This document shows positions 23,344-35,332 of a DNA stretch of 38,674 nt, piece by piece. Source of the stretch: Flavobacteriales bacterium (GTDB taxonomy: Bacteria; Bacteroidota; Bacteroidia; Flavobacteriales_D; Sanyastnellaceae); NCBI GenBank assembly GCA_029245065.1, contig JAQWQB010000048.1, forward strand, positions 1 through 38,674. The letters run 5' to 3'. Each line of letters begins with the position of its first letter. Position 1 is the stretch's first letter. The notes below the pieces were generated by a model. The model searched no databases. It was not told where the DNA came from and worked only from the letters and a program-made list of their open reading frames with translations. The position numbers were made by a program, and so were the translations under genes.

Positions 23344-24741
23344 ATGAAAGTTATTCTCATCATTTGCCGAATCTTAGTTGGATCCCTGTTCATTGTGTCA
23401 GGATTGATCAAGTCAAACGACGTTCTTGGATTTGTATACAAACTAGAAGAGTACTTCGAGCCAGGTGCCCTAAACTTGGAGTGGCTTGTCCCTTACGCAC
23501 TTCCGCTGGCAATCTTCATTGTCATTGGAGAGGTGTTGCTAGGTGTAGCCTTATTAGTAGGTGCGCTTCCCAAACTCACTAGTGTCTTAACGTTGGTTAT
23601 CATGTTGTTCTTCACGTGGTTAACGTTCTATACCGACAACTGTGATCCAAACGGTGTGGTAATGGTAGAGAACGCTGCAGGGGTAATGGAAGAAATCCCC
23701 AATCAATGTGTACTTGAATGTGGTTGCTTCGGAAATGCCATTCCACTGACCCCAAAAGAGAGTTTCTACAAAGATGTAATCCTCTTGATATTTGTGATAC
23801 CTATTGTGCTTGGGGCTTTATTCGGACGAATTACACTCAACACAAGCAAGGAAGCGATGTTCATCTACACCTTCTCCATCTTAATTACAGCCTTGTTCTC
23901 CATGATGATGCTTGACTGGATGTTCCCTACATTATTTACGGCACTTTGTCTCTTGATTGCATCGTTCATTCAGCGACGCGTTGAAGGGAAGAAGAAAGAG
24001 TACCTCATGGCACTTGGTGTGTTGGTTGTGGCTGGAATTTTCCAGTATTCTACTTTGTATCACCTGCCAATGAAAGATTACCGCCCATATGCAGTTGGAG
24101 AAAGCGTGCGTCAGAACATGAAGGACGCAGATGCACTCAATGACGAGTTAGAGCCAGGACAAGAACCATATACAGCACCTCAGTACGCTACTGAGTATAC
24201 GTTTGTGAATATCAAGACGAAGCAAGATACAGTTGTATTGTCTTCTGATTGGCTGCAGATTTACAATGAAGATTGGTTCAAGAACAACTACGAAATCAAA
24301 GAAGGTGGTTACGATGGGGCCGAAGTTAAAGTTGCTGACGGTTATGACCCAAGGATCAAGGATTTCGAGGTGATGAGCTACGATGGCGATGACTACACGT
24401 ATGAAATCGTAGATTATCCTGGTTACACCTTCTTGCACATTTCCAATACATTGGGCAAAGCACATACTTGTCCGCAAGAGTCCCTTACCGCTTTGGCTAA
24501 AGAAGCAGAAGCCAATGGACATCAGTTCTTTGCACTTACCAATGCTTCTTATGACGAAGCGGAAGACTACCGTCGTAAACACGAAGCGGCATATCCATTC
24601 TTGGTGTGTGATCAGACAGAATTGAAAATTGTAGTAAGAAGCAATCCAGGGCTAGTGCTTTTGCATGATGGAGTAGTGGTTGAAAAATGGGCTGCCTCTG
24701 ACATTCCGGCATTTTCTGATTTGAATGAATTGATGAAGTAA
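23344..24741 (+). CDS. BT_3928-type DoxX/MauE membrane protein with thioredoxin-like C-terminus
   Basis: A 465-residue protein. Residues 1-165 form a DoxX/MauE-like four-helix membrane unit (RILVGSLFIVSGLIKSNDV, then GEVLLGVALLVGALPK), with a cysteine pair in the extracytoplasmic loop ending in ECGCFGNAIPLTPKES. Further membrane segments run to about residue 245. The C-terminal 200 residues are soluble and end in a thioredoxin-like pattern (YTFLHISNTLGKAHTCPQES, then FFALTNASYDEAEDY and PGLVLLHDGVVVEKWA), but there is no CxxC active site; a single Cys sits in the HTCPQ segment. The family is conserved in Bacteroidota; a role in envelope redox chemistry is inference. Confidence 0.85.
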   Translation: MKVILIICRILVGSLFIVSGLIKSNDVLGFVYKLEEYFEPGALNLEWLVPYALPLAIFIVIGEVLLGVALLVGALPKLTSVLTLVIMLFFTWLTFYTDNCDPNGVVMVENAAGVMEEIPNQCVLECGCFGNAIPLTPKESFYKDVILLIFVIPIVLGALFGRITLNTSKEAMFIYTFSILITALFSMMMLDWMFPTLFTALCLLIASFIQRRVEGKKKEYLMALGVLVVAGIFQYSTLYHLPMKDYRPYAVGESVRQNMKDADALNDELEPGQEPYTAPQYATEYTFVNIKTKQDTVVLSSDWLQIYNEDWFKNNYEIKEGGYDGAEVKVADGYDPRIKDFEVMSYDGDDYTYEIVDYPGYTFLHISNTLGKAHTCPQESLTALAKEAEANGHQFFALTNASYDEAEDYRRKHEAAYPFLVCDQTELKIVVRSNPGLVLLHDGVVVEKWAASDIPAFSDLNELMK

Positions 24742-33718: not shown

Positions 33719-34162
33719 TCAGTGTTCGTAAGTAGAAAAGGTGCCATCTGAATAACATACAATGACACGCTCTATGGTTTTGGCGCTGTTGGGCTCCAGT
33801 TCTTTTTGAGTGCGAGCCGGAAGTGGTGTCGTCTTAGGAATCTGGGTGTTGCTTGTTACAGATGTATCATTCTCAGATTTCGTGACTTCCTCATGAATCG
33901 TTGCTTCCAAGGTATCTTCAGTGCTGATTGAAGAAGGTGTTACATTTGTAAACATCTTTCCTTTGCCGTGTAATAGCCATCTGGTATCCAACTCTGGATA
34001 AACATCGCTTAAAGTGGAGAGGAATGAGACGCTAGGCCTGTTTCTACCATTGATTAGATGTGATATTGCAGATCGTTGAACACCACACTTCTCTGCTAAC
34101 TCTTTGGGTTGAAGCGTATAATGTTTAAGTATTTGTGCTATTCGTTCACTGAAACTTTCCAT
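33719..34162 (-). CDS. XRE-family helix-turn-helix regulator
   Basis: A 147-residue DNA-binding protein. Residues 4-62 form a Cro/CI-type HTH (ERIAQILKHYTLQPKELAEK, then VQRSAISHLINGRNRPSVSFL), with ISHLINGRNRPS as the recognition helix region. Next comes DTRWLLHGKGKMF, common in Bacteroidota XRE proteins, then a Ser/Thr/Glu-rich linker (about 75-130) and a short C-terminal piece (ERVIVCYSDGTFSTYEH). The gene carries six matches to a 14-bp palindrome: three directly upstream, one at the end of fmt, two within this coding sequence. Autoregulation is therefore likely. It is last in the hup-to-fmt direction but has its own promoter region. Confidence 0.9.
   Translation of the reverse strand: MESFSERIAQILKHYTLQPKELAEKCGVQRSAISHLINGRNRPSVSFLSTLSDVYPELDTRWLLHGKGKMFTNVTPSSISTEDTLEATIHEEVTKSENDTSVTSNTQIPKTTPLPARTQKELEPNSAKTIERVIVCYSDGTFSTYEH
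33855..33868. promoter_or_regulatory. Intragenic operator-like site (copy of GTTACAnnTGTAAC)
   Basis: GTTACAGATGTATC, 11 of 12 specified positions, inside the XRE coding sequence (encoding D-T-S-V-T). Confidence 0.5.
33939..33952. promoter_or_regulatory. Intragenic operator-like site (copy of GTTACAnnTGTAAC)
   Basis: GTTACATTTGTAAA, 11 of 12 specified positions, inside the XRE coding sequence (encoding F-T-N-V-T), 84 bp from the other intragenic copy. Confidence 0.55.
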
Positions 34163-34163
34163 G

Positions 34164-34233
34164 GATACAAATGTAACAAAACATCGTTACAAATGTAACT
34201 ACAGGATGGTTTATTAGCAGTTACAGTTGTAAA
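34164..34233 (-). promoter_or_regulatory. Promoter and three operator-like palindromes of the XRE gene
   Basis: Three copies of GTTACAnnTGTAAC lie just before the start codon: GATACAAATGTAAC (34164-34177), GTTACAAATGTAAC (34186-34199, perfect) and GTTACAGTTGTAAA (34220-34233). Read on the minus strand, the first two contain TACATTTG, a perfect -7 element. The one nearest the gene lies 6 bases before the ATG and has TTA 20 bp upstream as a possible -33, inside the second palindrome. A protein bound here would cover the promoter. Confidence 0.7.
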
Positions 34234-34345
34234 CTAAGAAATCGAAACGAAAACCATATCTAGGAGAAATTGCTGTGTTTCCAGTTCAGTTCATTTATCC
34301 TAAAGTGCTGGAAAACAAACGGGTAAAGTGTTTTTTTCATCCGAA

Positions 34346-34359
34346 ATTACAAATGTATC
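34346..34359. promoter_or_regulatory. Distal operator-like site at the fmt 3' end
   Basis: ATTACAAATGTATC, 10 of 12 specified positions of GTTACAnnTGTAAC. It touches the fmt stop codon and lies 126 bp from the nearest promoter-proximal copy. Confidence 0.45.
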
Positions 34360-35332
34360 AGGAGAATGCCTCGTTGTTCAAATCGTGCCCAAGAATGAAA
34401 TCAGCAACTTCAAGCCTTCTTTTCCCTTGTGGTTGAAGCACTAGAATGGAATAAAGTTTATGGTCGCCGCAAACAACATACATCCCTTCTTTATCTTGAA
34501 TGATGCTCCCAGGGTTAGCGTTGGATGTTCTTTCAGTTGGAATCCCAAAATGGATTTTATAAGTGGATTCGCCCAAGAAAGTCCATGCTGAAGGAAAAGG
34601 GTTTAGCCCTCTAATGAAGTTGTGAATTTGAGAAGCTGGCTTAGACCAATCTAGTTGACAATCTTCTTTGAACAGCTTTGGAGCTGGTCGAAAATTTAAA
34701 AGATCAAACTGATTCTGAGGAACGGCTTCAATTGTGCCGGAGAATACGTTGGTACACGTTTCCACGAGAAGCGCTGCACCCATTTCTTTCATCGTATCAT
34801 GAACATCTCCAGTTGTATCGTTCACGCCAATTGCAAATTCAGCTTGTTTCAGAATGTTACCGGTGTCTATTTCCTTCTCAATGAAGAATGTTGAGCATCC
34901 AGTACGCTCGTCGCCATTCATAACCGCCCAATGAATGGGGGCTGCACCTCTATAATCAGGAAGAAGTGATCCATGCAGGTTGATCGTGCCGTATTTCGGC
35001 ATTTGCCACACCACCTCAGGCAACATACGAAAAGCGACAACCGCAAACAGATCCGCATTCCATGCTTTCAGCGCATCGGTAAATTCAGGGTCTTTCAATT
35101 TAAGAGGCTGTAACAGCGGTATATCGTGAGCTACTGCATACTCCTTCACTGCGGATGCCTTCAGCTTTCGCCCTCTTCCTGCTGGTTTATCAGCAACAGT
35201 TACTACACCTACAACGTGGTGTTCAGACTCATGCAGGGCTTTCAAAGAAGCCACTGCAAAGTCAGGAGTGCCCATAAATACGATTCGTTTCAATTGTGTC
35301 AAATTTGGTGGTACCTCCAATTCGATTTCCAT
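34358..35332 (-). CDS. fmt: Methionyl-tRNA formyltransferase
   Basis: A 324-residue enzyme that formylates the initiator Met-tRNA using 10-formyl-THF. The N-terminal domain shows RIVFMGTPDFAVASLKAL, ADKPAGRGRKLKASAVKEYA, and the catalytic region INLHGSLLPDYRGAAPIHWA with EIDTGNIL. The C-terminal domain has RGLNPFPSAWT. The ATG at 35332 puts 13 residues in front of the usual family start and overlaps the MATE gene by 34 bp. A TTG at 35293 would give the canonical beginning (M-K-R-I-V-F-M-G) with a 5-bp gap. Either may be used; the ATG is kept here. Confidence 0.95.
   Translation of the reverse strand: MEIELEVPPNLTQLKRIVFMGTPDFAVASLKALHESEHHVVGVVTVADKPAGRGRKLKASAVKEYAVAHDIPLLQPLKLKDPEFTDALKAWNADLFAVVAFRMLPEVVWQMPKYGTINLHGSLLPDYRGAAPIHWAVMNGDERTGCSTFFIEKEIDTGNILKQAEFAIGVNDTTGDVHDTMKEMGAALLVETCTNVFSGTIEAVPQNQFDLLNFRPAPKLFKEDCQLDWSKPASQIHNFIRGLNPFPSAWTFLGESTYKIHFGIPTERTSNANPGSIIQDKEGMYVVCGDHKLYSILVLQPQGKRRLEVADFILGHDLNNEAFS

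Follow-up and report, generated by a model that had tools for sequence, protein, structure and literature searches.

Predicted operators of a Bacteroidota XRE-family regulator extend from its promoter into the codons of its own linker

One palindromic word occurs six times in and around the gene of a small XRE-family regulator in a Flavobacteriales genome, and two of the copies lie inside the coding sequence of the regulator itself. Which protein is likely to read these sites, and are the intragenic copies regulatory DNA or merely the codons of a recurring peptide? The window considered here is the whole stretch of DNA that was analysed (38,674 nucleotides, contig JAQWQB010000048.1). All six sites reported in the initial annotation are present at its coordinates and with the placement described there, that is, three in the interval that separates the regulator from fmt, one across the stop codon of fmt and two in the regulator's coding sequence (CDS). 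They have 0 to 2 mismatches to GTTACAnnTGTAAC, five of them at most one and the sixth, at 34346, two.

33855–33868, no strand: intragenic operator 2 (predicted), encoding DTSVT from residue 99, codon phase 0, inside the linker
33939–33952, no strand: intragenic operator 1 (predicted), encoding FTNVT from residue 71, codon phase 0, at the border of HTH domain and linker
34164–34177, no strand: predicted operator at -15, with a -7 box toward the gene; a near-leaderless transcript is expected
34186–34199, no strand: predicted operator at -37, a perfect palindrome, with a -7 box toward the gene
34220–34233, no strand: predicted operator at -71, whose centre reads AC on the gene strand, without a -7 box; its end lies about 22 bp before the box at -35
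34346–34359, no strand: predicted operator over the fmt stop codon, with a -7 box toward the regulator
34358–35332, minus strand: fmt, methionyl-tRNA formyltransferase, the upstream neighbour of the regulator; stop codon at 34358–34360

The clustering of the six sites is far beyond chance. Every one of the five matches to GTTACAnnTGTAAC with zero or one mismatch in the window belongs to the array, and exactly two mismatches occur at three places, namely at 34346 and at two positions outside the array (23289 and 35450). Allowing up to three mismatches gives 14 matches in the window, close to what chance would produce (mean 15.4). The core pattern [AT]TACAnnTGTA[AT] is found seven times in the window, six times in the array and once at 24227, against an expectation of 0.147 per window in 300 shuffles, none of which placed more than one core site within 505 bp.

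The regulator gene encodes the following parts.

33719–34162, minus strand: CDS of the XRE-family regulator, 147 aa, with a match to PF01381 (HTH_3, E 2.6e-10) at residues 8–63
33953–34156, minus strand: codons of the HTH domain, approximately residues 3–70, with the fold of the P22 c2 and 434 repressors (pLDDT blocks 93–97; best Z 10.4, 3jxb)
33779–33940, minus strand: codons of a low-confidence linker, approximately residues 75–128 (pLDDT blocks 73, 53, 52, 52, 58 and 70 over residues 71–130)
33725–33769, minus strand: codons of a conserved C-terminal beta hairpin, residues 132–146 (pLDDT 91–92)

Membership in the XRE/HTH_3 family is clear (PF01381, 40.6 bits versus a curated cutoff of 23). 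The structure predicted from a 49-row alignment (mean pLDDT 80, pTM 0.51) consists of a five-helix HTH domain up to about residue 70, a linker, and a confidently modeled C-terminal beta hairpin whose residues Y137 and F142 are nearly invariant in alignment A2. With pLDDT values of 52–58 across residues 81–120, flanked by blocks of 73 and 70, the linker after the HTH domain is probably disordered. The hairpin is the candidate for sensing or oligomerisation. The HTH part alone was used for fold comparison, in which Z values within 1 of each other count as tied; it resembles the P22 c2-operator complex (3jxb; Z 10.4, 66 residues, 1.5 Å), SinR with DNA (3zkc; Z 9.3), the 434 repressor with its operator (2or1; Z 9.1) and C.Kpn2I (4yba; Z 8.7, 70 residues aligned). 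The family search at E ≤ 0.001 returned HTH families alone and no S24 peptidase domain, and scans of the regulator against NCBIfam and PHROGs gave generic regulator or HTH matches, none of them above the NCBIfam cutoff. The neighbours identified in the window are housekeeping genes.

Homologues of the regulator were detected at E ≤ 0.001 in 18 of 60 relatives, in 77 of 299 genomes of the order and in 93 of 395 genomes of the phylum. From the phylum set, 30 loci and then 20 further ones were fetched, and 30 loci came from the order set; the weaker matches in both sets include longer HTH proteins that are perhaps not orthologues. A search of named genomes gave at least 587 homologous stretches, the best 80 of which were used; among these 80 are many from Flavobacterium, Algibacter and other Flavobacteriaceae, and some from Bacteroidales. 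Altogether, 164 loci were examined, and 152 were left after the removal of duplicates over the first 70 residues and of one protein of the S24 type (L018, recognized by eye). Loci with distinct first 70 residues are called non-redundant (126/137 in the counts of centre bases, 152 in the later upstream counts). Nine of 146 loci had no automatically assigned start and were omitted from the earlier counts; eight of them were added again later, L018 being excluded. Within the family of the source organism, the regulator is present in 10 of 114 genomes (10 of the 50 near-complete ones) and follows fmt in all ten; this patchy presence would reflect retention or loss.

The interpretation of the array in the initial annotation, as operators of the XRE regulator, is supported by this sample, since the sites accompany the gene in many Bacteroidota. 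A core site lies within 330 bp upstream in 126 of 148 non-redundant homologues (22 have none), and 96 of the 148 have two or more. The upstream core sites total 294, whereas 0.94 would be expected from mononucleotide shuffles. Recurrent positions in Flavobacterium loci are near -40, -76 and -273 and, along with others, near -297.

The position of the sites relative to the promoter elements suggests how they might act. The -7 and -33 elements of Bacteroidota have been described as TAnnTTTG and TTTG, respectively, the latter not being essential (PMC2483708). The -7 box is reported to span -12 to -5 from the transcript start, and among the mRNAs mapped in F. psychrophilum only 5.5% are leaderless (PMC9723704). 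The word TACATTTG, which agrees with the sigma-A -7 element TAnnTTTG, points toward the regulator in three of the upstream array sites (34346, 34186, and 34164).

34168–34175, minus strand: -7 box TACATTTG at -13, without a TTG 18–22 bp upstream; predicted transcript start near 34163
34190–34197, minus strand: -7 box TACATTTG at -35, without a TTG 18–22 bp upstream; predicted transcript start near 34185
34350–34357, minus strand: -7 box TACATTTG at -195; predicted transcript start near 34345
34379–34382, minus strand: TTTG as -33 element within the coding sequence of fmt, 21 bp away from the -195 box

As a TTTG at 21 bp accompanies the box at -195 but neither of those at -35 and -13, the best-formed predicted promoter is that of the site farthest upstream. 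This predicted -33/-7 promoter (34345–34382) begins inside the fmt coding sequence and overlaps the fmt stop codon.

That a -7 element is built into the operator, as had been proposed from the window, holds well beyond this locus. In 84 of 91 non-redundant genes, the core site nearest the start codon, at most 60 bp away, has a TT centre and hence TACATTTG toward the gene; the same is true of 56 of 204 other upstream sites and of none of the 20 intragenic ones. A TTG-like element is weakly enriched 19–20 bp upstream of the box (83 genes; T 0.66/0.61, G 0.54/0.41). Among nine genes of the clade formed by the ten family orthologues, only 2 of 15 TAnnTTTG boxes have a TTG at 18–22 bp, namely the -195 box of the source genome and one box in L009. 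Where a box lies within 60 bp of the start codon (110 genes), two positions predominate. It begins at -38/-39 in 54 cases, which predicts a leader of some 26 nt, while a start at -12/-13 in 15 cases predicts a leaderless transcript or a one-base leader. Seven of the ten clade genes have a box start between -10 and -13, and in five loci (L002, L004, L005, L008, and L171) the box begins exactly 12 bases before the ATG, from which leaderless transcripts are predicted.

Judging from these sequence features, we consider it probable that the six palindromes are the operators of an XRE autorepressor, the proximal copies being placed over the -7 box and the intragenic ones serving as a roadblock or loop anchor. 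The protein would bind the palindrome as a dimer. Since the proximal operator overlaps the -7 box, autorepression at initiation would follow from the layout: a dimer bound there should cover the box and exclude RNA polymerase, and neighbouring dimers 22–36 bp apart might assist each other. Dimers on the intragenic sites would most likely stall the elongating polymerase or, less likely, loop the gene to its promoter; the roadblock is favoured by analogy, because this mode has been demonstrated for an XRE protein, C.Kpn2I (PMC6237814). The expected outcome is a tight negative feedback loop that, in the source genome, apparently controls no second locus. Against this reading, -33 elements are scarce among the clade boxes, 22 homologues have no upstream core site, and the presence of the gene in the family of the source organism is patchy.

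The strongest competitor of a roadblock is a loop switch, in which the intragenic sites would be distant anchors that an oligomeric repressor bridges to the promoter sites. Such distant operators tied to promoter sites are known from lac O2 and gal OI. Two spacings in the array, 84 and 126 bp, had also been noted as compatible with looping, being whole helical turns of 10.5 bp. Both distances are correct, but each occurs once, and the phasing does not extend to the homologues: 69 of 110 adjacent spacings below 150 bp are no multiples of 10.5 bp but measure 24 bp (23 cases) or 34–36 bp (46 cases). Between intragenic sites of relatives, the spacings are 36, 39, and 45 bp, none of them a whole number of turns, and in one case 138 bp, which comes close to 13 turns. 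Looping governed by helical phase was rejected on account of the dominant spacings of 24 and 34–36 bp. In favour of a loop, it speaks that intragenic site 1 is accompanied by a proximal TACATTTG box in 10 of 10 clade genes, the nearest pair being 221–256 bp apart (221–225 bp in seven), that many Flavobacterium loci instead have an upstream auxiliary site at a similar distance of about 233 bp (-273 and -40), and that the conserved C-terminal hairpin of the model could oligomerise. The distance from the box to site 1 is, however, mostly set by the codons of the HTH domain, as the linker is the first place where a site fits, and most site spacings do not follow helical turns. We regard the loop switch as rather unlikely.

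In the 3.19 Mb draft genome the core pattern occurs 18 times, six times in the array, versus ten occurrences of the reversed control; with zero or one mismatch to GTTACAnnTGTAAC there are nine places, five of them in the array, and the control is higher (23). None of the 12 core sites outside the array has a TT or AA centre. Eleven of these were checked; eight lie inside open reading frames (ORFs) and three are intergenic, the one nearest to a gene 96 bp before a 468-aa ORF. A wider regulon in the source genome was rejected on these grounds, and the earlier statement that there is no second cluster is borne out genome-wide, core sites clustering at the regulator locus only. Core totals exceed the reversed control in six of eight genomes with the regulator and in three of six genomes without it (by one match in G018, roughly twofold in G010 and G030), so genome-wide totals do not discriminate between the two groups.

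The description of the regulator as stand-alone, in turn, fits the source genome but not the homologues at large. In 102 of the 164 loci (redundant set) a homologue of M14 zinc carboxypeptidases, a family assigned from the Pfam match of one member, lies divergently upstream, and the site at -273 is about 38 bp from the estimated M14 start in most of 25 loci listed. For this gene the -7 rule is not established, as TACATTTG faces it in only 32 of 94 non-redundant loci. One of the ten clade genomes has an M14 homologue; the source genome has none at E ≤ 0.001, for which reason the peptidase was rejected as a target of the regulator there. L078, L083, L097, L086, and other loci combine a divergent M14 gene with array sites near its start, and in several loci the M14 gene is followed by a 159-aa ORF, which in L078 resembles an Lrp/AsnC regulator by eye.

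Could another protein bind the sites, the XRE regulator being merely one of its target genes? Half-sites of the type TTAC/GTAA are also used by the SOS regulator of Elizabethkingia anophelis (TTAC-AAATT-GTAA; PMC8565304), whose spacer is, however, one base longer than that of the array. Against a foreign binding protein, core sites cluster nowhere else in the source genome, and the array accompanies the regulator across loci whose neighbours differ (fmt for all ten family orthologues, the M14 peptidase and others in further loci). This explanation appears improbable to us.

The intragenic copies are a feature of the clade. All ten family orthologues contain at least one intragenic core site, compared to four of the 142 other homologues (L010, L011, L016, and L049), and since 138 of these 142 have none, the regulator family as such can do without the intragenic layer. 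Site 1 is found just after the HTH domain, at codons 70–78, in ten of ten orthologues; in L004 one outer position is lost, and hence it is not a core site there. L010 and L011 each have a single intragenic core site at codon 91 in phase 0; both come from a different family within the order, have another gene upstream, and possibly gained the site independently. The intragenic sites might also be antisense promoters under control of the regulator, because 10 of 20 non-redundant intragenic core sites have an AA centre, which reads TACATTTG on the antisense strand. Within the ten-gene clade 11 of 19 intragenic sites have this antisense box, but only two of the 11 are preceded by a TTG at 18–22 bp and the other eight sites have no box at all, making antisense transcription a very improbable purpose.

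Every core site within a CDS is in codon phase 0, in which the palindrome encodes x-T-x-V-[TS]. By itself, this agreement in phase says little, as phase 2 would give an in-frame stop codon and phase 1 a cysteine. More telling is a comparison in which the protein was fixed and codons were drawn from local usage for nine genes: 16 sites are observed, while 0.19 are expected and none of 5000 draws reaches 16. The intragenic copies are thus conserved at synonymous positions in relatives, as the operator interpretation of the initial annotation would have it. In the linkers of the nine genes, 17 of 19 T-x-V tripeptides use ACA and GTA (background fractions 0.22 and 0.24), and the palindrome persists although the middle residue varies (N, S, D, P, T, or Y). 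In the clade alignment, an invariant valine near site 1 is encoded by GTA in eight of ten genes and by GTT in two, while other invariant residues show diverse codons (five for Arg30, five for Leu51, and four for Gly66). Variation is low at some silent positions, nine of ten genes sharing one Asp codon and eight of ten one Phe codon. Still, silent positions have largely been turned over, so that common descent by itself does not account for the fixed ACA and GTA codons. Nine fmt coding sequences used as a control (with their last 17 bases left out) contain no core sites, and the tenth orthologue L171, a hold-out found after the pattern had been described, has the same layout as the other nine. 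By this codon-level evidence, the intragenic copies in the ten-orthologue clade are kept as DNA and not as peptide. The converse, that the repeats were retained for the peptide x-T-x-V-[TS], is scarcely credible and was rejected on the codon redraw and the codon diversity at invariant residues: the 19 tripeptides do recur in the nine linkers, but their middle residue varies, the same word stands in non-coding upstream DNA, and only three of the 19 are not core sites, one of these three (L004, FTNVA) still having TACA..TGTA.

Returning to the autorepressor, additional intragenic sites occur at varied linker positions across the clade, which, at the sequence level, suggests gain and movement of sites. 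It is conceivable that the disordered linker has become a landing strip for the operators of its own gene, a tolerant stretch whose codons were recruited and in which one to three sites were gained and shifted, so that one piece of DNA would be both spacer peptide and cis-regulatory array. Combined with a proximal -7 box from which a leaderless or near-leaderless transcript is expected, initiation and elongation could then be controlled with almost no non-coding DNA, and the intragenic sites may have replaced the upstream auxiliary sites of Flavobacteriaceae. We consider the arguments for and against this scenario evenly balanced. In any case, a widespread Bacteroidota repressor family gains a predicted operator, promoter logic, and target. 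The locus also offers a natural case of codons shared by regulatory DNA and protein code, and ten diverged genomes in which it can be measured how operators originate and change place within a linker.

No description of this regulator family, its operator, or this system was found in the open-access literature searched, including that on intragenic operators and autoregulation. Comparable elements are nevertheless known from several regulators. PurR of E. coli, a member of the LacI family with a large regulon, is autoregulated and has one operator in the purR coding region. The combination of an operator in the promoter region with an intragenic one in the own gene is shared with the predicted array, but family, operator, and regulon differ. 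The P22 c2 and 434 repressors and SinR share the HTH fold of their operator-bound structures with the regulator; unlike them, it has its own C-terminal hairpin after a long linker, and its identified neighbours in the window are housekeeping genes. LexA-like SOS regulators of Bacteroidetes likewise bind palindromes in their own promoter, one of them TTAC-N5-GTAA, and carry an S24 peptidase domain (PMC8565304). The regulator studied here instead consists of HTH domain, linker, and hairpin, and the spacer between TTAC and GTAA in its array is four bases rather than the five of the SOS regulator site (PMC8565304).

C.Kpn2I, finally, is the closest parallel for the intragenic sites, being a small XRE protein for which a site inside its own ORF limits its own expression (PMC6237814). 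The sites predicted here from sequence and codon constraint lie inside the ORF of the regulator as well. In C.Kpn2I, the site is located at the beginning of the ORF, and the protein, which belongs to a restriction-modification system, cannot repress initiation of its own gene (PMC6237814). In contrast, the regulator has its intragenic sites at codons 71 and 99, its identified neighbours are housekeeping genes, and the 75 bp before the ATG hold three further sites, two of which cover -7 boxes, so that the arrangement of a site at or just before the ORF beginning without any initiation-repressing site is not the one found here. The authors of the C.Kpn2I study suggest that the roadblock mode may be widespread (PMC6237814).
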